From: Streptomyces spinosus
GTDB taxonomy: Bacteria; Actinomycetota; Actinomycetes; Streptomycetales; Streptomycetaceae
Assembly: GCF_020400655.1 (NCBI RefSeq)
Contig: NZ_JAINRC010000028.1
Location: forward strand, 1 to 64,000
Direction of reading: 5' to 3'
Length of the DNA stretch: 64,000 bases
Of this stretch, positions 20,120-43,075 are shown piece after piece. Position 1 is the first letter of the stretch. Each line of letters starts with the position of its first letter. Below the pieces are notes generated by a model. It ran no database searches, was not told the origin of the DNA, and saw only the letters and a list, made by a program, of their open reading frames with translations. Made by a program: the position numbers and the translations under genes.

Positions 20120-21472
20120 ATGACGACAGACGAGGAACGGGCGGCCGGCCCCTGCCGGCGGTTGGCCCCCCGGCAGGCGTTCTGTCTCCAGGCCTCGGTC
20201 GTGGTGTTCTTCCTCGCCGGGGCAAGCGCACCCACTCCGCTCTACGCCACCTACCAGCAGCGGTGGCACTTCTCGCCGATCACCACCACGGTGATCTTCG
20301 GCGTGTACGCGATCGCGGTCCTGCTCGCCCTGCTCATCGTCGGCTCGCTCTCCGACCATGTCGGTCGCCGGCCGGTGATCTTCGGCTCCCTCGTGGTCCA
20401 GGCGGCAGCGGTGGTCGTCTTCGCCGGCGCCGACGGAGTGCCCGATCTGGTGTGCGGCAGGATTCTCCAGGGGCTCGCGACCGGCACGGTCGTGGGTGCC
20501 GTGGGCGCCGGCATGATCGACGTCAGCCGCTCGGCGGGAACCCTCGCCAACGCGGTGACGCCGGCCGCGGGTACCGCTGTGGGCGCCATGGGATCGGGGC
20601 TCCTGGTGACCTACGCGCCCCAGCCCACGCACCTCGTCTACGACGTTCTTCTGGTCGTCTACGTACTGCAGGCCGTCGGCGTGCTCCTCATGGCCGAGAC
20701 CGCTGCCCGTACCCCGGGCGCGCTGCGCTCACTGCGCGTGAGCTGGACCCTGCCGGCGCGGGCACGCGGTCCGCTGGTGAGGGCCGCGCCAGTGGTGCTG
20801 GCCGTCTGGGCGCTGGCCGGCTTCTACGGCTCCCTGGGCCCGGCACTGGTCCATCGCGTCGTCCCCGGTCAGGGCGCGCTGCTGGGCGGACTCGCCCTGT
20901 TCACGCTCACGGCCTGCGGTGCCCTGACCGTCCTCGTGCTGCGCGACGCCGCCCCCGTCACCACCATGCAGGTGGGGGCCCTGGCTCTCATCGGTGGTGT
21001 GGGGATCACCCTGGTGTCTGTCGCGCTCGGTTCCGCCGGACTGTTCTTCGTGGGCACGGGGATCGCCGGTGTCGGATTCGGGGCCGGCTTCCAGGGCGGC
21101 GTCCGCACGGTGGTACCGCTCGCCGAACCGCACGAGCGGTCGGGACTGCTGTCGGTCATGTACCTGATCTCGTATCTCGGCTTCGGCCTGCCGACGATCG
21201 TCGCAGGAGTGATCGTCGTGTACGGCGGCGGCGTGGCAAGGGCTGCCTACGAGTACGGCACAGCCGTGATGCTGTCGGCCGCGGTGGCTTTCGCCGGCAC
21301 TCTCGGACGCCGGTCCGCCCAGGTCTCGTCCGCTCCCGCGGTGCCCGTGTCCAGCCGCCCCGACACCGCGGTCGACGTGTGCGCCGACGGCAGCCGGCCC
21401 CGTGCCGCGCGCGGGCACCGTTCCTCCTCGCACGGCGGCGTTCCGGCACCCAAGGGAGACCAACCGTCATGA
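20120..21472 (+). CDS. MFS transporter
   Basis: This 450-residue membrane protein has about 12 hydrophobic segments. The loop 2-3 signature is present as GSLSDHVGRRPVI. The last 45 residues are a hydrophilic, low-complexity cytoplasmic tail. The ribosome binding site is AGGAGG. The stop overlaps the universal stress protein start (ATGA). Substrate cannot be predicted; the family includes many efflux pumps, and the operon context (stress protein, molybdoenzyme) suggests export of an inhibitory or acidic compound. Confidence 0.88.
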   Translation: MTTDEERAAGPCRRLAPRQAFCLQASVVVFFLAGASAPTPLYATYQQRWHFSPITTTVIFGVYAIAVLLALLIVGSLSDHVGRRPVIFGSLVVQAAAVVVFAGADGVPDLVCGRILQGLATGTVVGAVGAGMIDVSRSAGTLANAVTPAAGTAVGAMGSGLLVTYAPQPTHLVYDVLLVVYVLQAVGVLLMAETAARTPGALRSLRVSWTLPARARGPLVRAAPVVLAVWALAGFYGSLGPALVHRVVPGQGALLGGLALFTLTACGALTVLVLRDAAPVTTMQVGALALIGGVGITLVSVALGSAGLFFVGTGIAGVGFGAGFQGGVRTVVPLAEPHERSGLLSVMYLISYLGFGLPTIVAGVIVVYGGGVARAAYEYGTAVMLSAAVAFAGTLGRRSAQVSSAPAVPVSSRPDTAVDVCADGSRPRAARGHRSSSHGGVPAPKGDQPS

Positions 21473-21978
21473 ACCAGCCGACGCCTGGCACGGCCCCGCG
21501 GATCGTCGTGGGCGTCGACGGCTCACCCTCGTCGAAACGGGCTCTGGCCTGGGGCGGTTACCTGACCGCCACGATGGGAGGGGTGCTGGAGGCCGTGACC
21601 GCGTGGCAGGACCCCCCTTCCTGGACCGGCGTGGCCGACGACTGGGACCCCGCCGCCGACGCCGGCGCCATGCTGTCCGCCTGCTGCGCCGAGGTGTTCG
21701 GCGACGCCCCGCCCGGGGACCTGCGGACCACGGTTCGAGAGGGCGCCGCCGCGGCCGTCCTGCTCAGCGTGAGCGCGGGAGCCCGGATGCTCGTACTCGG
21801 CAGCAGAGGCCACGGCGGTTTCGCGGGTCTGCTGCTGGGATCGGTCAGTGCCGCATGTGCCGAGCACGCTCCCTGTCCTGCCTTGATCATCCACGGCGAC
21901 GGCCTGCCGCCGGCCGCCGCCGTCGCGTCCGGCACGGGCCGGAACACCCCCGCAGCGACGACGAAGGGAACACGATGA
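21469..21978 (+). CDS. Universal stress protein (UspA family)
   Basis: The ATG at 21469 overlaps the transporter stop by 4 nt, and the stop at 21978 overlaps the next start by 4 nt. The 169-residue protein begins RIVVGVDGSPSSKRALAWG. It contains the ATP-binding signature GSRGHGGFAGLLLGSVS (G-x2-G-x9-G-S), so it belongs to the ATP-binding subgroup. It has a single domain, unlike the tandem USPs common in actinobacteria. It presumably senses the energy or stress state for the operon. Confidence 0.9.
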   Translation: MNQPTPGTAPRIVVGVDGSPSSKRALAWGGYLTATMGGVLEAVTAWQDPPSWTGVADDWDPAADAGAMLSACCAEVFGDAPPGDLRTTVREGAAAAVLLSVSAGARMLVLGSRGHGGFAGLLLGSVSAACAEHAPCPALIIHGDGLPPAAAVASGTGRNTPAATTKGTR

Positions 21979-24269
21979 CCGCACACGAAGAAGCCCGGAG
22001 CGGGAGGAAGGCTCCGAAGTCCAGCCCCTACCGGCATCCCGCAGCCGGATGGGGCGCGGCGAAGAGCGTCGCCGAGTTCCTCGTGCGCGAGCGCAGCCTG
22101 GTGTCCGGCACACGTGCCATCCAGCGCATGAACCACGAGAACGGCGGATTCGACTGTCCGGGCTGCGCCTGGCCCGACGACCGCAAAGGGCTGCACCTCG
22201 ACATCTGCGAGAACGGCATCAAGCACGTCACGTGGGAGATGACCCGCAAGCGGGTCGGCCGCGACTTCTTCGCGGCGCACACGGTGACGGAACTCATGGA
22301 GTGGTCCGACTTCGACCTCGAGAACCAGGGCCGCCTCACCGAGCCGATGGTCTACGACCAGGCGAGCGACAGGTACCTCCCCATCACCTGGGACGACGCC
22401 TTCGCCATGGTCGGACGGGCGCTGCGCTCGCTGGACGACCCCGACCAGGCATCCTTCTACACCTCGGGACGACTGAGCAACGAAGGCACGTTCCTCTACC
22501 AGCTGCTGGCCCGGGAACTGGGCACCAACAACCTGCCGGACTGCTCCAACATGTGCCACGAAGCCAGCGGCAGGGCACTCCAGGCGTCCATCGGGACCGG
22601 TAAGGGCACCGTGGACGTCAACGACTGGCAGGCGGCCGACGCCCTGTTCGTCTTCGGGGTGAACGCGGCCTCCAACGCTCCGCGCATGCTGACCGCCCTG
22701 GCCGAGGCGTACCGGCGCGGAACACAGATCGTGCACATCAATCCGATGGTCGAGGCCGCGGCCCGCGACACCATCGTTCCGCACGAGTTCGTCGAGATGG
22801 CCCGCTTCCACGCCACCCCGACCAGCACCCTGAACCTTCAGCCACGCATCGGCGGAGACATGGCTCTGCTGCGTGGCATGGCGAAGGCCCTGCTGGAAGC
22901 CTCACGCACGGACCCCGATGCCGTGGACCGCGAGTTCCTCGGTCGGTACACGCACGGTTACGCGGCCTGCCGCCAGGTGTGCGAGGACACCTCCTGGGAG
23001 ACGATCGAACACCAGTCGGGAGTGGCGAAGCGGGACATCCTCAAGGCGGCCGACATCTACCGCGCCGCGGACCGCACCATCATCAGCTGGTGTCTCGGTC
23101 TCACCCAGCACGAACACGGCGTGGACACCGTCCGGGAGATCGTCAACCTGCTCCTGCTCCGCGGGAACATCGGCCGCGAGGGCGCGGGCCCGTCCCCGGT
23201 ACGCGGCCACAGCAACGTGCAGGGCAACCGCACCTGCGGCATCGACCACCGCCCCGCCCCAGCCTTCCTCGACCGCCTCCAGGAGGTGTGCGGCTTCGCT
23301 CCGCCCCGCGCTCACGGGCTGGACACAGTGCGCACGATCGAGGCCATGAACAGCGGGCGGGTGAAGGTCTTCGTCGGCATGGGCGGCAACTTCGCCCTGG
23401 CCGCTCCCGACACCGCGTACACCTACTCCGGACTGCGCAACTGCGACCTGACGGTCCAGGTCAGCACCAAACTCAACCGCAGCCACCTCGTCCACGGGCG
23501 ACAGGCGCTCATCCTGCCCTGCCTCGGACGCACCGAGAAGGACCACCAGCGCGGCGGGTTGCAGTCCGTGTCCGTCGAGGACGCCATGAGCATGGTGCAC
23601 CTCTCCAAGGGCATGAAGCGTCCGGCCTCAACCGAGTTGAAGTCCGAACCCGCGATCATCGCCGGGATGGCCCGCGCGGCGCTCCCGGACAGTGCCACCC
23701 CCTGGGAAGCCTACGTGGACGACTACGACCGCATCCGCGACACCATGGCCCAGGTGCTGGAGGGCTTCGACGACTTCAACCGGCGCGTACGCCGGCCATT
23801 GGGCTTCCGCATCCACCAGCCCGCCCGGGAACGGGTGTTCCTCACCCCGTCCGGACGGGCCGAATTCTCCCACGCCGGGCTGCCCGACGTCCTCAACGCC
23901 GACGGCACGCTGACCCTCGCCACGATCCGGTCGCACGACCAGTGGAACACCACCGTCTATTCCGACAACGACCGTTACCGCGGCATCAAGAACCTGCGCA
24001 CGCTCGTCTTCATGAACGACGAGGACATGCGGGAGCGCGGCATCGGCACGTTCGATCCGGTCGACATCGTCAGCACCGCGAAGGACGGCAGCAAGCGCCG
24101 CCTGGACGGCTTCCTGGCGGTCCCCTACGACATTCCCCCCGGCTGCGCGGCCGGTTACATGCCGGAAATGAACGTGCTGTGCGCGATCGGCGACTACAGC
24201 ACACAGAGCGACCAGCCCCTCATGAAGCACGTGAAGGTGACCGTGACACCGGCCACGCCCGCACCCTGA
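21975..24269 (+). CDS. FdhF/YdeP family molybdopterin-dependent oxidoreductase
   Basis: The start at 21975 overlaps the universal stress protein stop (ATGA) and gives 764 residues, the usual length for YdeP-type proteins. Family features include [12 protein letters not shown] near residue 60, then [53 protein letters not shown] and a C-terminal MopB-ligand-binding domain with [15 protein letters not shown]. YdeP of E. coli is linked to acid resistance and is related to formate dehydrogenase H, but the physiological substrate is not established. The N-terminal Cys pair is not a full 4Fe-4S CxxC-type set. It is the last gene of the operon, with a hairpin immediately after. Confidence 0.9.
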
Positions 24270-24296: not shown

Positions 24297-24537
24297 CCCG
24301 GGACGGACCGGTCGCCACCCCTTCCACGAGCGGTTCGCGACGGTGCGGATCGTGCTTGCGGGACGGTTCGCTCCGATATGTCCGGCGCACTGCATGGGCC
24401 ATGAGCACCTTATGAGTGCGTGTGCGCCCTTCCGGTTCCCCCTGGGGGACGGAAATGATGAGCGCACCGCACATGAGCCAGGTGATCCGCGGTCCCCTGT
24501 CCCTCGGCCGGGCGGACCGGCGGTGAAGGAGGTCAGG

Positions 24538-25293
24538 GTGTTGCTTCTCATCTCCCCGGACGGTGTCGAGGAGGCTCTCGAATGCGCGAAGGCGGCGGAG
24601 CATCTCGACATCGTCGACGTCAAGAAGCCTGACGAGGGCTCTCTGGGCGCGAACTTCCCCTGGGTCATCAGGGAGATCCGCGACGCGGTCCCGGCGGACA
24701 AGCCGGTGTCCGCGACCGTGGGTGACGTCCCCTACAAGCCCGGCACGGTGGCTCAGGCCGCGCTCGGCGCGGTCGTCTCCGGGGCCACGTACATCAAGGT
24801 CGGCCTCTATGGATGCACCACGCCCGACCAGGCCATCGAGGTCATGCGCGCGGTCGTCCGGGCGGTGAAGGACCACCGCCCGGACGCGCTCGTCGTCGCC
24901 TCGGGCTATGCCGACGCCCACCGGATCGGCTGCGTCAATCCGCTCGCCGTGCCCGACGTCGCCGCCCGCTCCGGCGCCGACGCGGCCATGCTCGACACCG
25001 CCGTCAAGGACGGGACCCGGCTGTTCGACCACGTTCCGCCGGACGTCTGCGCCGAGTTCGTCCGGCTGACCCACGCATCCGGCCGACTGGCGGCTCTCGC
25101 GGGCAGTGTCACCCAGGCCGACCTCGGCCCGCTGACCCGCATCGGTACGGACATCGTGGGCGTACGGGGAGCGGTCTGTGAGGGCGGTGACCGCAACGCC
25201 GGAAGGATCCAGCCACACCTGGTCGCCGCCTTCCGGGCGGAGATGGACCGGCAGGCCCGGGAGCACGCCGCCGGCGTCCCGGCCGTGAACTGA
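24538..25293 (+). CDS. mfnB: (5-formylfuran-3-yl)methyl phosphate synthase, MfnB family
   Basis: The GTG at 24538 lies 7 nt after AAGGAGG and gives 251 residues; the 65-residue upstream extension has no domain. The sequence follows archaeal MfnB closely: [65 protein letters not shown]. Lys29, Lys87, Asp153 and Lys157 correspond, with a constant offset of two, to the catalytic residues reported for the Methanocaldococcus enzyme. MfnB condenses two glyceraldehyde 3-phosphates into a phosphorylated furan aldehyde, the first step to the furan of methanofuran in archaea. Here it heads an operon with an aldehyde dehydrogenase, an alcohol dehydrogenase and a methyltransferase, so a bacterial furan metabolite is likely. 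The product is unknown. Confidence 0.88.
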
Positions 25294-25301
25294 CCACCGG
25301 G

Positions 25302-26705
25302 ATGCCGACACCGGAAGCCGGCCGCACCCCCGGACACCGTGCCTCGCGCCTCGCCGTCGTGGACCCGGCCACCGGGGATGCCTTCGACGAGGCCCCCGAC
25401 CAGCAGCCGGACGAGCTGGACGCCGTGGTCGACCGGGCCCGGCGTGCCTGGACCGGATGGCGCGCCGATCCGGCCGCCCGCGCCACCGGGCTGCGCGCCG
25501 CCGCCGACGCCGTGGAGGCGGCCGGGGACGACCTCGCTCCGCTGCTCACCCGGGAACAGGGCAAGCCCCTGGCCGAGTCGTACGCCGAGGTCGCCCGCAC
25601 GGCGGCCCGGCTGCGCTACTTCGCCGGCCTGGCCCCCCGCACCCGCCCGGTCGACGACGGCCGGCCCGTGCGCGGCGAGATCCGCTGGCGTCCCCTTGGA
25701 CCCGTCGGCGCGATCGTGCCGTGGAACTTCCCCCTCCAGATCGCGGCGGCGAAGTTCGCGCCCGCACTCGCGGCCGGCAACACCGTGGTCCTCAAACCGT
25801 CCCCGTACACCCCTCTCGCCACCCGGCTGCTCGGTTCCGTCCTCGCCACGGCCCTGCCCCAGGACGTCCTGACCGTCGTCACCGGTCGTGAACCCCTCGG
25901 TGCCCGCCTCGCCTCCCATCCGGGAATCCGCCATGTCACCTTCACCGGCTCGGTGCCGACCGGGCGGGCCGTCGCCGGAGCGGCGGCGTCCTCGCTCGCC
26001 CGGGTCACCCTGGAACTGGGCGGCAACGACGCGGCCGTCCTCCTGGACGACGTCGACGTGGACCGGATCGCGGACCGGCTGTTCTGGGCCGCCTTCCGTA
26101 ACTGCGGGCAGGTCTGCATGGCCGTCAAACGCGTCTACGCCCCGGCCCGGCTCCACGCCGAGGTCGTCGAGGCCCTCGCCCACCGGGCGAAGACCGTCGT
26201 CGTCGGACCCGGACTCGACCCGGACACCCGGCTCGGGCCGGTCAACAACGCTCCCCAGCTGGCCCGGGTCGAGCGGGTCACCCGGCAGGCCCTGGCGGCA
26301 GGCGCCCGGGCGGCGGCCGGCGGTCACCGGCTTGACGGACCCGGCCACTTCTTCGCGCCCACCATCCTCACCGACGTGCCTGCCGACGACCCGGTGGTGA
26401 CCGGGGAACAGTTCGGACCGGTCCTGCCGGTGCTGCCGTACCGGGACCTCGACGAAGCCGTCGAAGCGGCCAACGGCACCGACTTCGGGCTGGGCGGCTC
26501 CGTGTGGGGCACCGACCTCGACCGGGCGGAGGCCGTGGCCGACCGGCTCGACTGTGGCACGGCCTGGATCAATCACCATGCCGAACTGTCCCTCGCCCAG
26601 CCCTTCGCCGGCGTCAAGAACAGCGGTGTCGGCGTCGCAGGTGGGCCGTGGGGCCTCTACGGCAACCTCCGGCCGTTCGTGGTCCACCGTCCGCAGGAGG
26701 CGTGA
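25302..26705 (+). CDS. NAD(P)-dependent aldehyde dehydrogenase
   Basis: The protein has 467 residues, and its start lies 8 nt after the mfnB stop. It shows the ALDH family motifs: PWNFPLQIAAAKFAPALAAGN, the general-base Glu in TLELGGND (about residue 238), and the catalytic Cys in RNCGQVCMAVKR (about 273). The C-terminal AGVKNSGVGVAGG completes the fold. It is a little shorter than typical ALDHs at the N-terminus. As the second gene of the furan-synthase operon, it could oxidise the formyl group of the MfnB product to a carboxylate; this is inferred from context. Confidence 0.92.
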   Translation: MPTPEAGRTPGHRASRLAVVDPATGDAFDEAPDQQPDELDAVVDRARRAWTGWRADPAARATGLRAAADAVEAAGDDLAPLLTREQGKPLAESYAEVARTAARLRYFAGLAPRTRPVDDGRPVRGEIRWRPLGPVGAIVPWNFPLQIAAAKFAPALAAGNTVVLKPSPYTPLATRLLGSVLATALPQDVLTVVTGREPLGARLASHPGIRHVTFTGSVPTGRAVAGAAASSLARVTLELGGNDAAVLLDDVDVDRIADRLFWAAFRNCGQVCMAVKRVYAPARLHAEVVEALAHRAKTVVVGPGLDPDTRLGPVNNAPQLARVERVTRQALAAGARAAAGGHRLDGPGHFFAPTILTDVPADDPVVTGEQFGPVLPVLPYRDLDEAVEAANGTDFGLGGSVWGTDLDRAEAVADRLDCGTAWINHHAELSLAQPFAGVKNSGVGVAGGPWGLYGNLRPFVVHRPQEA

Positions 26706-26707
26706 CG

Positions 26708-27814
26708 ATGAGGTTGCGGGCAGCTGTACTGCGCTCCTACGAGGGCCCGTTCACGGTGGAGGAGGTGACCCTGCGCACAGAGCCCGGCGCCGGCGAAATC
26801 CTGGTCGAGATCGCGGGCTGCGGAATGTGCCGGACCGATCTCGCGGTCCGGCGATCGGCCGGCCGCAGCCCGTTGCCGGCGGTGCTCGGCCACGAGGGGG
26901 CCGGGGTCGTGGTGGCGACGGGCGACGGCTCGGACGGCGCGATCGGCGTCGGTGACCACGTCGTGCTGAGCTTCGACTCCTGCGGGCGCTGCCGGACCTG
27001 TCTCGGCGCGGCCCCCGCCTACTGCGACTCCTTCGCCTCCCTCAACCTCTTCGGAGGACGCAAGGAGGACGCGCCGCGGCTCACCGACGCGACCGGGGAA
27101 GCGCTGGCCCCCCGCTGGTTCGGCCAGTCCTCGTTCGCCGAGTACGCGCTCGTCCCGGCCCGCAACGCCGTCCGGGTCGACCCCGCCCTGCCCCTCGAAC
27201 TGCTCGGGCCACTCGGCTGCGGGTTCCTCACCGGCGCCGGGGCCGTGCTGAACACCTTCGGCATCGTCCCCGGCGACACCCTCGCCGTCTTCGGCGCGGG
27301 AGCCGTGGGCCTGGCCGCCGTGCTGGCGGCCACCGCCGCCGGCGCCCTGACCGTGGCCGTCGACCGGCACCCCCAACGGCTGACCCTGGCCGAACGGTTC
27401 GGTGCGGTCCCGCTGCCCGCGGCAACGGCCGGACTGCCCGAGCAGATCCGGCACCTGACCGACGGCGGCGTGCAGTACGCACTGGACACCACGGCCTCGC
27501 CGCCGCTCATCAACGACGCGCTCCGGGCACTGCGCCCCACCGGCACCCTCGGCCTGGTGGCACGGCTCCACACCGCGCTGCCGCTCGAACCGGGCACCTT
27601 GGACCGAGGCCGCAGCATCCGCCACATCTGCGAAGGGGACGCCCTGCCCGGACTGCTGATACCCCGATTGACCGGGCTGTGGCAGGCCGGACGCTTCCCC
27701 TTCGACCAGCTGATCCGCACCTATCCACTAGCCGACATCAACGAGGCCGAACGCGACTGCGAAGCGGGCCGCGTGGTCAAACCCGTCCTGCTCCTGGAGC
27801 GAAGCAGCCGATGA
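26708..27814 (+). CDS. Zinc-dependent alcohol dehydrogenase (MDR family, aryl-alcohol type)
   Basis: The ATG at 26708 follows GGAGGCGTGACG and is 2 nt beyond the ALDH stop, giving 368 residues. The catalytic zinc site is visible as GCGMCRTD and GHEGAG. The structural zinc loop is CGRCRTCLGAAPAYC (C-x2-C-x2-C-x7-C). The Rossmann motif is VFGAGAVGLAAVLAA. The organisation resembles aryl-alcohol (benzyl alcohol) dehydrogenases, fitting an aromatic furanyl-methanol substrate. In the operon it may interconvert the hydroxymethyl and formyl groups of the furan. Its stop overlaps the next start (ATGA). Confidence 0.92.
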   Translation: MRLRAAVLRSYEGPFTVEEVTLRTEPGAGEILVEIAGCGMCRTDLAVRRSAGRSPLPAVLGHEGAGVVVATGDGSDGAIGVGDHVVLSFDSCGRCRTCLGAAPAYCDSFASLNLFGGRKEDAPRLTDATGEALAPRWFGQSSFAEYALVPARNAVRVDPALPLELLGPLGCGFLTGAGAVLNTFGIVPGDTLAVFGAGAVGLAAVLAATAAGALTVAVDRHPQRLTLAERFGAVPLPAATAGLPEQIRHLTDGGVQYALDTTASPPLINDALRALRPTGTLGLVARLHTALPLEPGTLDRGRSIRHICEGDALPGLLIPRLTGLWQAGRFPFDQLIRTYPLADINEAERDCEAGRVVKPVLLLERSSR

Positions 27815-28800
27815 GCGAGGCATACAGCACCGCAGACCCAGCGCATCCGACCGGCGGACCCCCCGCGGTCCCCACTCCCGCCAACGGAGGACACATGGCC
27901 GGCACGGCCCCGCAGCACACGGACGTGGAAGGTGTGGACGCAGGGGTCGGTCTGACCGCCCTCCTGGTCGCCGCGGCCCGGGCGATCGAGACCCACCGCC
28001 ACGACAGCCTGGCCCAGGACGCCTACGCGGAGCACTTCGTGCGCGCCGCCCCGGCGTGCGCGGACTGGCCGGTGCGCATCGAGCAGGTCCCGGACGGGGA
28101 CGGCAACCCGCTATGGGGGCGGTTCGCACGCTACTTCGGCCTGAGGACCCGGGTCCTCGACGACTTCCTCCTCCGGTCGGTCCGTACAAGCGCTCGCCAA
28201 GTCGTCCTGCTGGGAGCCGGGTTGGACACCCGCGCCTTCCGACTCGACTGGCCCTCCGGCTGCGTCGTCTTCGAGATCGACCGGGCGGGCGTGCTGGCGT
28301 TCAAACACCGGGTGCTCACGGACCTGACAGCCACCCCGACGGTGGAGCGCGTCCCCGTACCGATCGACCTGCGCGGCGACTGGGTCACCGCGCTGACCAC
28401 CGCCGGCTTCGACCCGGCCGCACCGAGCGCCTGGCTGGCCGAGGGACTCCTCTTCTACCTGCCGAGCCCCGCCGAGACGTACCTCATCGACACGGTGGAC
28501 CGGCTGACCACCCGGGGCAGCACACTGGCCTTCGAGGCCAAGCTGGAGAAGGACCTGCTGGCGTACCGCGACAGCCCGATCTACACCGCGACGCGGGAGC
28601 AGACCGGCATCGACCTGCTCCAGCTCTTCGACAAGGGACCCCGGCCCGACTCCGCGGGCGACCTGACGGCCAAGGGCTGGTCCACCTCGATGCACACGCC
28701 CTTCGACTTCAGCCGCCGGCACCGACGTGGCCCCCTGCCCGAGCCCAACGACGCACTGGAGGGGAACCGGTGGGTGTTCGCCCACAAACCCACGCCCTGA
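27811..28800 (+). CDS. Class I SAM-dependent methyltransferase, TIGR00027 / leucine carboxyl methyltransferase-like
   Basis: The start at 27811 overlaps the ADH stop by 4 nt and gives 329 residues. An internal ATG at 27895 has a stronger GGAGG and begins just before the conserved domain, so either is possible. Family motifs are GVGLTALLVAAARAIET, the SAM-binding LLGAGLDTRAFRLDWP, VFEIDRAGVLAFK and WLAEGLLFYLPSP. Proteins of this group are related to leucine carboxyl methyltransferases, which esterify carboxylates. As the last gene in the furan operon it could methylate a furan carboxylate made by the aldehyde dehydrogenase. That role is inference. Confidence 0.9.
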   Translation: MSEAYSTADPAHPTGGPPAVPTPANGGHMAGTAPQHTDVEGVDAGVGLTALLVAAARAIETHRHDSLAQDAYAEHFVRAAPACADWPVRIEQVPDGDGNPLWGRFARYFGLRTRVLDDFLLRSVRTSARQVVLLGAGLDTRAFRLDWPSGCVVFEIDRAGVLAFKHRVLTDLTATPTVERVPVPIDLRGDWVTALTTAGFDPAAPSAWLAEGLLFYLPSPAETYLIDTVDRLTTRGSTLAFEAKLEKDLLAYRDSPIYTATREQTGIDLLQLFDKGPRPDSAGDLTAKGWSTSMHTPFDFSRRHRRGPLPEPNDALEGNRWVFAHKPTP

Positions 28801-28982: not shown

Positions 28983-29516
28983 TCAGGCGGCCCGGGCAGC
29001 CACCAGCCGGTCGCCTGGGATACCGGCCATGTCCGGCGCGTAGTAGTCCTTGATGCCGGCCTCCCACGTGGCCACGGTGATGCGGTCCTCGGCGTCCGGA
29101 CCGAAGGCGTCGAAGAGTGCGTGGATGTTCGCCTCCTCGAAGCCGATCGCCGTCATCAGCGATACGAAGAGGGGGCGCTCGATCAGACCGTCCCCGTCGG
29201 GGTCGCCGAGTGCGGAGAGGGCCTCGGCGAACTCGGCGATCGTGGGACCGAAACGCTCGGGGTCGAGCACGAACGGACGGAACTCGTCCATGGTGATCAC
29301 ACCGTCGCCGTCGGCGTCCAGTTCAGTGGCCAGCGTCGTCCAGTAGCGGCGGAACGCGGCCCGGATGGCGGCCTTGGCGCCGTCGTCCGAAGCGACCGCC
29401 GCTTCCAGCACACGGCTCGCCATCAGATCGAAGTCGTCGGAGTCGACGACTCCGTTGGCGTTGGTGTCGAAGAGGGAGAAGACCAGCTCGACCCGCTTGG
29501 CGGCCTCGTCTCGCAT
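28983..29516 (-). CDS. EF-hand calcium-binding protein (calerythrin/SCP-like)
   Basis: The protein has 177 residues. Three EF-hand loops are canonical or nearly so: DTNANGVVDSDDF (about residue 17), DADGDGVITMDEF (about 67) and DPDGDGLIERPLF (about 104). A fourth degenerate one includes GPDAEDRITVATW (about 140). Length and four-hand layout match the actinobacterial calerythrin-like sarcoplasmic calcium-binding proteins, which buffer or sense cytoplasmic calcium. There is no signal peptide. It is transcribed alone, convergent to the furan operon. Confidence 0.92.
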   Translation of the reverse strand: MRDEAAKRVELVFSLFDTNANGVVDSDDFDLMASRVLEAAVASDDGAKAAIRAAFRRYWTTLATELDADGDGVITMDEFRPFVLDPERFGPTIAEFAEALSALGDPDGDGLIERPLFVSLMTAIGFEEANIHALFDAFGPDAEDRITVATWEAGIKDYYAPDMAGIPGDRLVAARAA

Positions 29517-38298: not shown

Positions 38299-38763
38299 AT
38301 GACGACGACCGCGCACGAGCGGGCCGACCTGCTGGACAAGCTCGGGTTGGCCACACAGAACAAAGCAGCGCTGGGTCAGGTGCTGGGAACCGGAAGCATC
38401 GGGCAGGCAACCGAGGAACCGGACGGCCGTATGAAGGCCACCATTCGCATCCATCCGGACGAGCTGACCTGGGATCCCTCCATTCTGGTCATGCCGCACG
38501 GAGGCGATATCGAGTTGGAGCTCGTCAACGACGACAAGAACACGCACTGCGCACTTCTGCCGAGCAATGGCGACAGGAAGTTCATCTGGCTGGTGAACCA
38601 TTCGCACGGGCATGCGCACCTCAACCTCGACGGTCCGGGCTACTACTGGTTCGGCTCGCCCACGGGCAATGACGAGGGCCGGGGGCTGACCGGGTCCATC
38701 GTGGTCCTGGGAGACGCTCCGCCGGAGGCCCGCCTCGACCGTCCCGAACAGCCGCGGCCGTAG
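38299..38763 (+). CDS. MSMEG_3727-type PQQ-associated cupredoxin-like protein
   Basis: The protein has 154 residues, without a signal peptide. After a 50-residue N-terminus there is a cupredoxin-like beta domain (IRIHPDELTWDPSILVMPHGG, ELVNDDKNTHCALLPSNGD, FIWLVNHSHGHAHLNLDGPG, read as separate strands). His and Cys residues (DDKNTHC, NHSHGHAH) could bind copper or haem-like ligands. Its place 22 nt before a PQQ dehydrogenase matches the actinobacterial PQQ-associated protein family named after MSMEG_3727. It may be the electron acceptor or a partner of the dehydrogenase; the exact role is not known to me. Confidence 0.75.
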   Translation: MTTTAHERADLLDKLGLATQNKAALGQVLGTGSIGQATEEPDGRMKATIRIHPDELTWDPSILVMPHGGDIELELVNDDKNTHCALLPSNGDRKFIWLVNHSHGHAHLNLDGPGYYWFGSPTGNDEGRGLTGSIVVLGDAPPEARLDRPEQPRP

Positions 38764-38785
38764 GCAGAAGCAGGAGGTGGAGGAA

Positions 38786-40495
38786 ATGACCGTCGACTAC
38801 GCCGACTACGTCGACGCGGGTGAGGCCGTCGACCAGGGAACCCTGAATTACAAGACCCCTGGCGGAGACGTCGCGCCGCCGGTAGTGGCCGGTGTCGACT
38901 ACGAGCGCATACTCAACGCGCGCCAGGAACCCCAGAACTGGCTCACCTACTACGGCGCCTACAACGGGCAGCGCTACAGCCCGCTGGACCAGATCAACAC
39001 GGACAACGTCAAGCGCATGGTCCCCGCCTGGGTCTTCCAGGCCGGCACGACCGGACTGATCGCGGGCGCGTCGACCTACTCGTTCGAGGCCGCCCCGATC
39101 GTCGTCGACGGGGTCATGTTCCTCTCCGGCTGGGACGGCTGGGTATGGGCCCTAGACGCGAAGACGGGCGTGGAGATCTGGCGGTACAAGCACGCGGTCC
39201 CCTTCGACGTGTCCTTGTGCTGCGGGAACGTGAACCGCGGGGTCGCCGTGGCCCAGGGGAAGGTCTTCTTCGTCACGGCGAACGCCCGGGTGCTGGCGCT
39301 CGACGCCACCACCGGCAGGCGGGTCTGGGACAAGACCTACGGCGACGTCCGGGCGGGGGAGAGCGCCACGCTCGCCCCTCTCGTCGTGAAGAACATGGTC
39401 ATCGTCGGAAGTTCCGGCGGCGAGTTCGGCGTACGCGGCCACCTCGACGCGTTCGATCTCGAAACCGGCGAGCACCAGTGGCGCTGCTACACGGTTCCCA
39501 AGCCCGGGGAGCCCGGCTCGGAGACCTGGCCCGCCGACGGCGAGGCCTGGGCACGGGGCGGGGCGAACTGCTGGATCACCGGCACCTTCGACCCGGAGAC
39601 GAACCTGCTGTACGTGGGCACCGGCAACCCGGCGCCCGACTTCGACGGAGAGGTCCGCGAGGGCGACAACCTCTTCACCGACAGCATCATCGCCGTGGAC
39701 GTGGACAGCGGTCAGATCCGCTGGCACTACCAGTGCACCCCGCACGACGTGTGGGACTACGACAGCATCGGCGAGTGCATCCTGTTCGAGCAGGACGGCC
39801 GCAAACTGCTCGGTCACTTCGACAAGAACGGCTACTTCTTCGTCCTCGACCGCACGAACGGCGCGAGGGTCGGGATCACCCCCTTCGTCGACCGCATCAC
39901 CTGGGGGGCGATCACGAGGGACGGCCAGGTGACGGCCAAGGTGTACCCGGACAAGGAGGGAGAACCGGTCCACTTCTACCCCGGTCCGGCCGGTGCCAAG
40001 GAATGGACCCATGCGGCCTACAGTCCGAAGACCGGACTGTTCTACGTCCCGGTCCAGGACACCGGTGCCACGGCCACCCGGCGGCGGCGGGAGTTCAAGG
40101 AGAGCATTCCGTACTGGGGTGCGGGCGTTCAGGTGGACATCGGGGACATGGCGGGGTCCATCAGCGCCTTCGACGCCGCCGGCGAGGAGAAGTGGCGCTG
40201 GCGCAACGACCTCCCGATGTGCGCTTCGACGCTGGCCACCGGCGGTGACCTGGTGTTCGCCGGTGAGCCCTCCGGGGAGTTCAACGCACTCGACGCCCGC
40301 ACCGGGGAGCTGCTGTGGCAGTTCCAGTGCGGAAGCGGCCACCACAGCAGCCCGACCACCTACATGGTCGACGGCAGGCAGTACGTGGCCGTGCCCGTCG
40401 GCTGGGGCGGATGGGCCGAGGGATTCCTCCCCGGCATGCTCGGCGCGGGGCACGGAAGCGCCCTGATCGTCTTCGCCCTTCCGGAACCGTCGTAG
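38786..40495 (+). CDS. PQQ-dependent alcohol dehydrogenase (quinoprotein, predicted lanthanide type)
   Basis: The ATG at 38786 follows AGGAGGTGGAGG and gives 569 residues. The eight-bladed propeller with W-motifs is evident (SGWDGWVWALDAKTG, GDLVFAGEPSGEFNALDA). The adjacent cysteines SLCCGNVNRG (about residue 144) form the vicinal disulfide of quinoprotein alcohol dehydrogenases. The catalytic Asp is in TPHDVWDYDS (about 321). A second Asp two residues later gives the D-x-D arrangement that marks lanthanide-dependent XoxF/PedH/ExaF enzymes; calcium enzymes have Ala or Ser there. No signal peptide is visible, which is odd because classical members work outside the membrane. Alcohol or aldehyde substrate unknown. 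It precedes the pqq genes that make its cofactor. Confidence 0.93.
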   Translation: MTVDYADYVDAGEAVDQGTLNYKTPGGDVAPPVVAGVDYERILNARQEPQNWLTYYGAYNGQRYSPLDQINTDNVKRMVPAWVFQAGTTGLIAGASTYSFEAAPIVVDGVMFLSGWDGWVWALDAKTGVEIWRYKHAVPFDVSLCCGNVNRGVAVAQGKVFFVTANARVLALDATTGRRVWDKTYGDVRAGESATLAPLVVKNMVIVGSSGGEFGVRGHLDAFDLETGEHQWRCYTVPKPGEPGSETWPADGEAWARGGANCWITGTFDPETNLLYVGTGNPAPDFDGEVREGDNLFTDSIIAVDVDSGQIRWHYQCTPHDVWDYDSIGECILFEQDGRKLLGHFDKNGYFFVLDRTNGARVGITPFVDRITWGAITRDGQVTAKVYPDKEGEPVHFYPGPAGAKEWTHAAYSPKTGLFYVPVQDTGATATRRRREFKESIPYWGAGVQVDIGDMAGSISAFDAAGEEKWRWRNDLPMCASTLATGGDLVFAGEPSGEFNALDARTGELLWQFQCGSGHHSSPTTYMVDGRQYVAVPVGWGGWAEGFLPGMLGAGHGSALIVFALPEPS

Positions 40496-40543
40496 CGCGT
40501 GACCGGAGCCTGCCGTGATTCCCGGCGGAGAGGAGGTGGATCC

Positions 40544-40639
40544 ATGGAGTCTCAGCTCGCCGTGTGGGAGACGCCCGATTTCGACGAGGTCGCAGTCGCG
40601 GCCGAGGTGACCATGTACCTTGCCCGGTTGGAGGACTAG
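40544..40639 (+). CDS. pqqA: PQQ precursor peptide PqqA
   Basis: A 31-codon gene begins with the ATG at 40544 and has a very strong ribosome binding site (AGAGGAGGTGG). The peptide contains Glu21 and Tyr25 in the E-x3-Y spacing (EVTMY) that PqqE cross-links during PQQ biosynthesis, and the family-typical WETPDF near its N-terminus. It lies 48 nt after the PQQ dehydrogenase and upstream of pqqC, pqqD and pqqE. Confidence 0.93.
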   Translation: MESQLAVWETPDFDEVAVAAEVTMYLARLED

Positions 40640-40945
40640 CGGATGATGGGCGGCACCGGACCTGGTCCGGCGTCGCCCGACGGTTCGGGAGGCCGCGGCC
40701 GGCCGACACGCACGCACTCGTGCGGCCCGGTCCGGCCGGCGAGACGCCGCGGGTCATGGGCCGCCTTCCATCGACGGCCCGGACTGAAGCCTGACGCGGG
40801 TCCCCTTCGCCCGATGAGGGCGGACGATCCGCGTGCACACGAACAACGCCGCCCCGGTCCCCGTGGAGGACACGCCCGAGCGGCGTTCCCTGGAGGAGCG
40901 GCATGGAAGGGGCCAGGAACGGCCTCGAGGTCCAGGTGTACAGCC
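40640..40945. other. Spacer between pqqA and pqqC
   Basis: About 305 nt, unusually long inside a pqq operon. No gene with a recognisable family is present; pqqB, which is commonly found at this place, is absent. A 38-codon GTG frame starts near 40831 but shows no PqqA-like E-x3-Y motif. Confidence 0.55.
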
Positions 40946-41644
40946 GTGACGACGACAACCATCACAACCGGCGCCGACGGTTTCGTGGAGACGCTGCGGG
41001 CCCACTCGCGGCGCTACCACGACCAGCACCCGTTCCACGTCCGGATGAACGCCGGCCGGCTGAGCCGTCGCCAGATCCGGGGCTGGGTGGCCAACCGCTT
41101 CTACTACCAGGAGAACATCCCCCGCAAGGACGCCGCGATCCTTTCCAACTGCCCCGACGTGGAGGTCCGTCGCCGCTGGATCCGGCGGATCGTCGAGCAC
41201 GACGGCACGGCCGCGGGCGAGGGCGGCATCGAGGCATGGCTGCGCCTCGCCGAGGCCGCCGGGCTGACCCGTGAGGAGGTCCGGGACCACCGGCACCTGG
41301 TACCGGGGGTGCGGTTCGCCGTCGACGCCTACGTGAACTTCGCCCGGACCCGCCCGTGGGTGGAGGCGGTGGCGTCCTCGCTCACGGAGCTGTTCGCGCC
41401 CGACCTGATGGCGGCGCGGCTCGCCGCGTTCGAGCGGTGGTACCCGTGGATCGCCCCCGAGGGCCTCGCCTACTTCCGCGCCCGCCTGGAGCAGGCCCCC
41501 CGCGACTGCGAGCACGCCCTGGAGGTGGTCACCGCGCACTGCCTCTCCGCCGAGTCCCAGGCGCGCGCCGTCGACGCGCTGTCGTTCAAGTGCGATGTCC
41601 TGTGGAGCCTCATGGACGCCATCGACCAGGCCTACCCGGAGTGA
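40946..41644 (+). CDS. pqqC: Pyrroloquinoline-quinone synthase PqqC
   Basis: The GTG at 40946 gives 232 residues, the normal PqqC length. Typical motifs include [60 protein letters not shown] and [19 protein letters not shown]. PqqC catalyses the final ring closure and eight-electron oxidation to PQQ, consuming molecular oxygen and releasing hydrogen peroxide. The following gene begins at or over its stop codon (GTGA). Confidence 0.93.
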
Positions 41645-41649
41645 CCACC

Positions 41650-41979
41650 ATGGACCCGACCCGTACCGGAACGACCCACAGCAGCAGCACGACCCGGCCC
41701 GGCGCCGGGGTGTCCGGCCTGGACCGGCCCCGGTTGGCTGCCCATGTCCGGCTCACCTTCTGCCGGACCAGGCAGCGCAAGGTCCTGCTGCACCCCGAGA
41801 CGGTCGTGGTTCTGAACGGCAGCGGCGCGGCCATCCTGGAGCTGTGCGACGGGCGGCACACCGTGGCCGAGATCGTGGACGAGCTGGGCGCCCGCTATCA
41901 GACCGTTCCCGAGGACGACGTCCGGCAGTTCCTGGCCCGGCTCGTCGCCCGGCGCTGGGTGGAGCTCACCGATGGATAG
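41650..41979 (+). CDS. pqqD: PQQ biosynthesis peptide chaperone PqqD
   Basis: The ATG at 41650 with GGAG eight bases upstream gives 109 residues; a GTG at 41641 overlapping the pqqC stop is an alternative. The C-terminal 85 residues show the RiPP-recognition-element fold typical of PqqD (RQRKVLLHPETVVVLNGSGA, ILELCDGRHTVAEIVDEL). PqqD presents PqqA to the radical SAM enzyme PqqE. Its end overlaps the pqqE start by 8 nt, indicating coupling. Confidence 0.93.
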   Translation: MDPTRTGTTHSSSTTRPGAGVSGLDRPRLAAHVRLTFCRTRQRKVLLHPETVVVLNGSGAAILELCDGRHTVAEIVDELGARYQTVPEDDVRQFLARLVARRWVELTDG

Positions 41980-43075
41980 CCCCTTCGGGCTGCTCGCCGA
42001 GCTGACCTACCGCTGCCCGCTGGCCTGCCCCTACTGCTCCAACCCGCTGAACCTGGCCGGCTACCAGGACGAGCTGACCACCGACGAGTGGCTGCGGGTG
42101 CTGACCGAGGCCGAGGACCTGGGAGTCTTGCAGTGCCACCTGTCCGGCGGGGAACCGCTGCTGCGGCGCGACCTCGTGGAGCTCGTGACGCACGCCCATG
42201 CGCTCGGCCTCTACACCAACCTCATCACCAGCGCGCTCGGGCTCTCGCGTCCGAGGGCCGAGCAGTTGCGGGCCGCCGGTTTGGACCACGTACAGATCAG
42301 CGTCCAGGCCGACGAACCGGCCGTGTCCGACCGGATCGCCGGGGTCCCCTCCTTCCGGCGCAAGATCGAGGCGATGGGTGTGGTCAAGGAGCTGGGCTGG
42401 CCGCTCACGGTGAACGTGGTGCTGCACCGGCACAACATCGACCGCGTCGCCGACCTGCTCGCTCTGGCCGAGGAGGTGGGCGCGGACCGGGTGGAGCTGG
42501 CCAACACCCAGTACTACGGCTGGGCCTGGCGAAACCGTGCCGCGCTGCTGCCGAGCCGGGCCCAGCTCGAAGCGGCCGAGGCCGTCGTACGGGCCGCCGT
42601 CGAGCGGTCGCGGGACCACATGGACATAATCTGGGTCATCCCGGACTATTACAGCCGTTATCCGAAGCCTTGCATGGGCGGTTGGGCCTCCCGGCAGCTG
42701 ACCGTGACGCCGAACGGCGACGTCCTGCCCTGCCCGGCCGCCCAGCCCCTGCCGTTGCCACGGGCCAGTGTGCGGGAGGAACCGCTGGATCGGATCTGGG
42801 CCGAGGCGCCCGTGATGACCGCGTTCCGCGGGACCGACTGGATGCCGGAACCCTGCCGGAGCTGCCCCCGGCGGGAGGTGGACTTCGGCGGGTGCCGCTG
42901 CCAGGCGTTCCTGCTCACCGGCGACGCCGCCCGCACTGACCCGGTCTGCTACCTGTCGCCCGACCACGACCTGGTCGCCCGGGCGGTCGAGGCCGCCAAC
43001 GCCGACTCGCGGGACGACGACCCTCCGCTGGTCCCCCGACCGCACCGCCCGGCTCCGCCACCCGTCGCCCGGTAG
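41972..43075 (+). CDS. pqqE: PqqA peptide cyclase PqqE (radical SAM/SPASM)
   Basis: This 367-residue radical SAM enzyme has the CxxxCxxC cluster motif at Cys15, Cys19 and Cys22 (CPLACPYC). HLSGGEPLLRRDL supplies the SAM-binding GGEP. The C-terminal SPASM domain has Cys-rich motifs (KPCMGGWAS, LPCPAAQP, EPCRSCPRREVDFGGCRCQ). It cross-links Glu21 and Tyr25 of PqqA in the first step of PQQ synthesis. The last 30 residues are a Pro/Arg-rich tail. A 35-nt piece of its 3' end (42979-43013) is repeated just after the gene at 43088-43122. Confidence 0.94.
   Translation: MDSPFGLLAELTYRCPLACPYCSNPLNLAGYQDELTTDEWLRVLTEAEDLGVLQCHLSGGEPLLRRDLVELVTHAHALGLYTNLITSALGLSRPRAEQLRAAGLDHVQISVQADEPAVSDRIAGVPSFRRKIEAMGVVKELGWPLTVNVVLHRHNIDRVADLLALAEEVGADRVELANTQYYGWAWRNRAALLPSRAQLEAAEAVVRAAVERSRDHMDIIWVIPDYYSRYPKPCMGGWASRQLTVTPNGDVLPCPAAQPLPLPRASVREEPLDRIWAEAPVMTAFRGTDWMPEPCRSCPRREVDFGGCRCQAFLLTGDAARTDPVCYLSPDHDLVARAVEAANADSRDDDPPLVPRPHRPAPPPVAR

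Follow-up and report, generated by a model that had tools for sequence, protein, structure and literature searches.

The DNA analyzed here (the window) is a 64,000-nucleotide stretch of the Streptomyces spinosus genome, positions 1 to 64,000 of the forward strand of contig NZ_JAINRC010000028.1 in assembly GCF_020400655.1. It carries a four-gene cassette on the plus strand, with a non-coding leader before the first gene and a convergent gene behind the last:

24418 to 24537, plus strand: non-coding leader of mfnB, ~120 nt, conserved across the aligned loci
24538 to 25293, plus strand: mfnB, predicted (5-formylfuran-3-yl)methyl phosphate synthase, GTG start, 251 aa (PF04476, NF002573)
25302 to 26705, plus strand: aldh, aldehyde dehydrogenase (ALDH), 467 aa (PF00171)
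26708 to 27814, plus strand: adh, zinc alcohol dehydrogenase (ADH) of the benzyl/aryl-alcohol type, 368 aa (ADH_N/ADH_zinc_N)
27895 to 28800, plus strand: LCM/TIGR00027 SAM-dependent carboxyl-methyltransferase-like protein, 301 aa when counted from the favored start codon (the ORF opens at 27811)
28983 to 29516, minus strand: Ca2+-binding EF-hand protein, whose gene travels with the cassette

The open reading frame (ORF) coordinates agree with the close spacing described in an earlier sequence-only reading of this DNA, with 8 nt between mfnB and aldh and 2 nt between aldh and adh. That reading also placed an ATGA overlap between adh and the methyltransferase gene, and an ORF does open at 27811, but the methyltransferase start is probably at 27895 and the overlap may therefore not be a real junction. 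A GGAGG Shine-Dalgarno sequence precedes the ATG at 27895, a start preceded by a Shine-Dalgarno sequence lies near the equivalent position in 63 of 83 loci, and the annotation of a plasmid homologue gives the identical length of 906 nt.

The mfnB product matches PF04476 at 264 bits (cut-off, 22.4) and NCBIfam NF002573 at 394.6 bits against a cut-off of 341, passing the equivalog threshold, and the NCBI pipeline already gives the Streptomyces protein its MfnB name. Over 229 residues it shares 59% identity with Methanocaldococcus jannaschii MJ1099, for which a structure is solved. The retention of Lys29, Lys87, Asp153, and Lys157 had been reported previously and holds; with Asp27, these residues are invariant across 125 loci and correspond to MJ1099 Lys27 (the Schiff base lysine), Lys85, Asp151, Lys155, and Asp25, respectively. 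The methanogen enzyme converts two molecules of glyceraldehyde 3-phosphate to (5-formylfuran-3-yl)methyl phosphate (PMC6604932), and family membership together with the active site suggests that MfnB condenses two D-glyceraldehyde 3-phosphates here too. The MfnB of the proteobacterium Azospirillum, which is located in an fhc gene cluster, shares ~34% identity with Streptomyces MfnB, compared with 59% for the archaeal enzyme; Streptomyces mfnB thus belongs to the archaeal type and was likely acquired laterally. We note also several weak PF04476 matches (profile positions 1 to 122) in G108, G228, G080, G853, and G869, in ORFs of ~480 to 590 aa that probably represent another TIM-barrel family rather than MfnB.

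A scan of genome contigs yielded 80 named mfnB loci, all from Streptomyces, Kitasatospora, and Actinacidiphila, and the genes recur there as a unit; adh adjoins mfnB in 80 of 80 and the methyltransferase accompanies them in 79, the exception (L065) running off a contig edge. Strong mfnB matches are present in 96 of 393 Streptomyces (three further matches are weak and resemble another family), and about one in four Streptomyces species carries the cassette. In a family-level sample of Streptomycetaceae, 8 of 17 genera have an mfnB match, and among 395 genomes sampled across the class, matches were found in Streptomyces only and in no other family; in the samples scanned, the cassette is restricted to Streptomycetaceae. 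Close ADH orthologues are present in 26 of 26 genomes with mfnB and in 0 of 25 without it (51 genomes; Fisher P of ~4e-15), as are methyltransferases of at least 70% identity (26/26 versus 0/25), substantiating the suggestion of a genuine co-inherited operon. Among pairs of loci, 1,813 of 1,830 (99%) share DNA within the cassette, compared with 18 in the left flank and 5 in the right (~1% or fewer). Furthermore, mfnB is found on thirteen streptomycete plasmid records, and the whole cassette is present in all four plasmid regions read, three of them on linear plasmids and one on a circular plasmid. Median dN/dS values of ~0.14 to 0.31 show purifying selection on the cassette genes, and the cassette is a co-inherited, horizontally mobile unit of the Streptomycetaceae.

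Besides the cassette and the EF-hand gene, no gene family recurs in eight or more of the 80 loci, as counted with a crude ORF caller, and the unit is therefore complete in itself. Membership in a larger cluster was rejected, since the EF-hand gene is the sole recurring neighbor. Control through TTA codons and bldA was likewise set aside because such codons are rare, as was carriage by phages, to which there was no match. The window also contains a PQQ cluster at 38299 to 43075 (an MSMEG_3727-like protein, a methanol/ethanol-type PQQ dehydrogenase, PqqC, and PqqE, with a probable PqqD recognized by eye at about 41650 to 41979) and, just 5' of the cassette at 21402 to 24269, a molybdopterin oxidoreductase of the FdhF/YdeP family. 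A relative of the latter lies near the cassette copies L068, L109, and L124 but is not general; neither the PQQ cluster nor the FdhF-like protein is considered a cassette part, as they are not generally recurrent across loci.

Between genera, and on plasmids too, the mfnB leader (24418 to 24537) is highly conserved, with a mean column identity of 76% (42 to 89 loci aligned), and it ends at the Shine-Dalgarno sequence; in the same alignments there is no clear conservation upstream of these ~120 nt. It contains CCGCA repeats, with three direct CCGC[A/G] copies and one inverted copy (TGCGG) just before the Shine-Dalgarno sequence. The leader is not an upstream ORF, as the frames are not maintained and stops occur in some loci. 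A hairpin before the Shine-Dalgarno sequence is usually kept (87% paired), but with few double changes and weak covariation, and a covarying RNA is not convincing; an alternative helix lacks support. The leader may accordingly act either as an operator or through RNA. The leader has no match in Rfam, no second copy was found in its own genome, and inspection by eye did not reveal it upstream of the second operon described below.

The alcohol dehydrogenase retains catalytic Cys41, His62, and Glu63, as well as the three structural-zinc cysteines checked (Cys92, Cys95, and Cys98), all invariant in 85 loci. Its relatives include benzyl alcohol dehydrogenase (PDB 1f8f; 263 bits), and the benzyl-alcohol type would be a fair match for a hydroxymethylfuran substrate. 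The adh gene is never lost from the cassette. The aldehyde dehydrogenase gene is present in the great majority of loci and is under purifying selection, with catalytic Cys272 and Glu238 kept in every sequence covering them, yet it is the dispensable member of the cassette. It is deleted in seven loci (L038, L055, L087, L100, L101, and those of G059 and G096 [L136 and L137]), and it scores as fragmentary in L139. The deletions fall at four or more positions in a FastTree phylogeny of mfnB and adh, and so in separate lineages, and the loci concerned keep both adh and the methyltransferase gene. Either a host ALDH substitutes in these strains, or the order of steps differs and the acid arises otherwise.

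The methyltransferase carries a PF04072 LCM domain (186 bits) and also matches TIGR00027. Its structure model has a mean pLDDT of 76 with a poor N terminus, and a Foldseek comparison gives Rv0731c and ML2640 as the best matches, followed by the carboxyl methyltransferases LCMT1, PPM1, and TYW4. From the fold, it may act on a carboxylate of the furan. The gene is retained in all complete loci, and in seven of 80 it is inverted yet still adjacent. The window's own genome encodes one more methyltransferase from this subfamily (L128; G000:C66:381142-381999; 60% identity), near a contig end and without recognized partners.

The EF-hand gene adjoins the cassette in 41 of 74 loci, lying downstream in 36 and divergently upstream in 5, the latter being a distinct paralogue. 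EF-hand and methyltransferase genes are also brought together in a second operon (for example, L126:7687-10962; also L125, L127, and L141 to L168), in which an EF-hand gene comes first and is followed by genes for an isocitrate-isopropylmalate-dehydrogenase-like (IDH-like) protein, an isochorismatase-like hydrolase, and an LCM methyltransferase of the cassette subfamily. The EF-hand and IDH-like genes overlap at their junction, and the four genes are adjacent in all 16 of the 16 Streptomyces (among 393) that have the operon. None of these 16 genomes carries mfnB (hypergeometric P of ~0.011, not corrected for kinship), and the second operon and the furan cassette are apparently mutually exclusive. 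The methyltransferase/EF-hand pair thus serves two different core pathways, an argument for a functional link of the EF-hand protein. We note that a conserved motif, GCCGATAGTGG, lies upstream of many second-operon copies. A lone EF-hand paralogue (~72% identical) occurs in a conserved chromosomal context in L130, L131, and L132 with no methyltransferase nearby, and two of these three genomes carry mfnB.

The product of the cassette is very probably a small furan that has not been described before, and not the coenzyme methanofuran. In keeping with the earlier remark that methanofuran genes are not visible in this DNA, neither of the two methanofuran markers searched for, MCH (PF02289) and MfnF (TIGR03123), is present in the whole 9.17-Mb host genome, and the absence of these two disfavors a cofactor pathway. 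In the best explanation, MfnB would form (5-formylfuran-3-yl)methyl phosphate from two molecules of D-glyceraldehyde 3-phosphate, a host phosphatase would presumably remove the phosphate, as the cassette encodes none, and ADH and ALDH (a host ALDH where aldh is lost) would set the oxidation state of both one-carbon arms to give a furan carboxylate. The LCM-type methyltransferase would then methylate the carboxylate, and methyl 4-(hydroxymethyl)- or 4-formyl-furan-2-carboxylate are the likely products. Control or sensing of this pathway is probably the task of the EF-hand protein and the conserved leader.

The combination of a benzyl-type ADH and a carboxyl-methyltransferase fold suggests a furan carboxylic methyl ester, and this part of the earlier proposal (interconversion of alcohol, aldehyde, and acid followed by methyl esterification) is partly supported. 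The acid step stands less securely than the earlier reading suggested, however, because aldh is deleted in at least four lineages while the methyltransferase is retained, and the lack of a cassette phosphatase also counts against the pathway. As a whole, a self-contained pathway ending in a small methyl ester of a 2,4-disubstituted furan is about evenly balanced between being right and being wrong. The same deletions, together with the constancy of adh, favor a scheme in which furan formation goes ahead with ALDH in an accessory role of detoxification or salvage, ADH acts reductively, and the product is an alcohol or aldehyde furan or is methylated elsewhere. The carboxyl type of the methyltransferase fold does not fit this well, nor do the purifying selection on aldh and the catalytic Cys and Glu kept in the great majority of its copies, and we regard it as somewhat unlikely.

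The other explanations carry less weight. One is that the cassette supplies a precursor of a bigger natural product or of a cofactor resembling methanofuran. MfnB has been characterized in the biosynthesis of methanofuran and methylofuran (PMC6604932, PMC8141765), which speaks for this, but no scaffold or ligase gene recurs beside the cassette, MCH and MfnF are absent, and the contexts on chromosomes and plasmids are unrelated, all of which make this improbable. We hold a similarly low opinion of the idea that Streptomyces MfnB has drifted to another aldolase or lyase reaction and that the furan prediction is wrong; furan catalysis in the streptomycete clade is indeed a prediction and the partners are unlike the archaeal ones, but the 59% identity to MJ1099, the Schiff base lysine and active site invariant in 125 loci, and a score above the NCBI equivalog cut-off argue for the original activity. 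Least probable, and very much so, is a sink or detoxification route for triose phosphate or aldehyde stress with no dedicated signaling product. A substrate from central metabolism, two dehydrogenases, and a mobile accessory distribution are consistent with such a role, although a SAM-dependent methyltransferase is a costly and dedicated activity to keep in all complete loci, and the association with an EF-hand protein does not favor it.

It is conceivable, albeit rather unlikely, that the cassette is a hormone-like mobile system of Streptomycetaceae, in which a methyl-esterified furan acts as a signal tied to the EF-hand protein and controlled through the leader, with the second operon employing its methyltransferase/EF-hand pair to cap another small acid as an alternative dialect. 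The five-part unit (MfnB, ALDH, ADH, LCM methyltransferase, and EF-hand protein) and its leader predict a definite small molecule. This would represent a new class of furans, and possibly a new signaling family, in the best-studied antibiotic producers, and biotechnology would gain access to 2,4-furan chemistry from a mesophilic bacterium. The pathway cassette is well supported and widespread, and it appears to be undescribed; in the open-access literature searched, no description was found of a Streptomyces MfnB pathway, its product, or the predicted furan esters.

Streptomyces MfnB resembles M. jannaschii MJ1099 (PDB 4RC1/4U9P) in family, length, and the five active-site residues, but its host is an aerobic actinomycete that lacks MfnF and MCH, and its partners are ALDH, ADH, and a methyltransferase. 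Bacterial use of MfnB is shared with the methylofuran pathway of methylotrophic proteobacteria (Orf22 and others; PMC8141765), although the proteobacterial gene lies in an archaeal-like fhc cluster, whereas the Streptomyces protein is closer to the archaeal enzyme. The methyltransferase shares its predicted fold and LCM domain with the mycobacterial proteins Rv0731c and ML2640, whose records name no substrate; LCMT1, PPM1, and TYW4 are similar in fold, but their substrates are protein or a tRNA base. Streptomyces also encodes CabC-type EF-hand proteins (reviewed in PMC5693915), which are likewise small and Ca2+ binding, whereas the cassette EF-hand protein belongs to a subfamily tied to the cassette and to the second methyltransferase operon. 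A functional analogy exists with the methylenomycin furans of Streptomyces coelicolor, small hydroxymethylfuran carboxylates that a few genes (MmfL, MmfH, and MmfP) build starting with triose phosphate (PMC6604932). These differ in the butenolide ring formation by MmfL, the alkyl beta-ketoacyl unit, and the substitution pattern, and neither an MmfL/AfsA-type enzyme nor a cognate TetR receptor is among the families recurring in at least 8 of the 80 loci; the predicted cassette product is not of the MmfL furan (AHFCA) type, and MfnB would form the ring instead. Signaling has been demonstrated for the methylenomycin furans, and a corresponding role for the cassette product is, at this stage, hypothetical.
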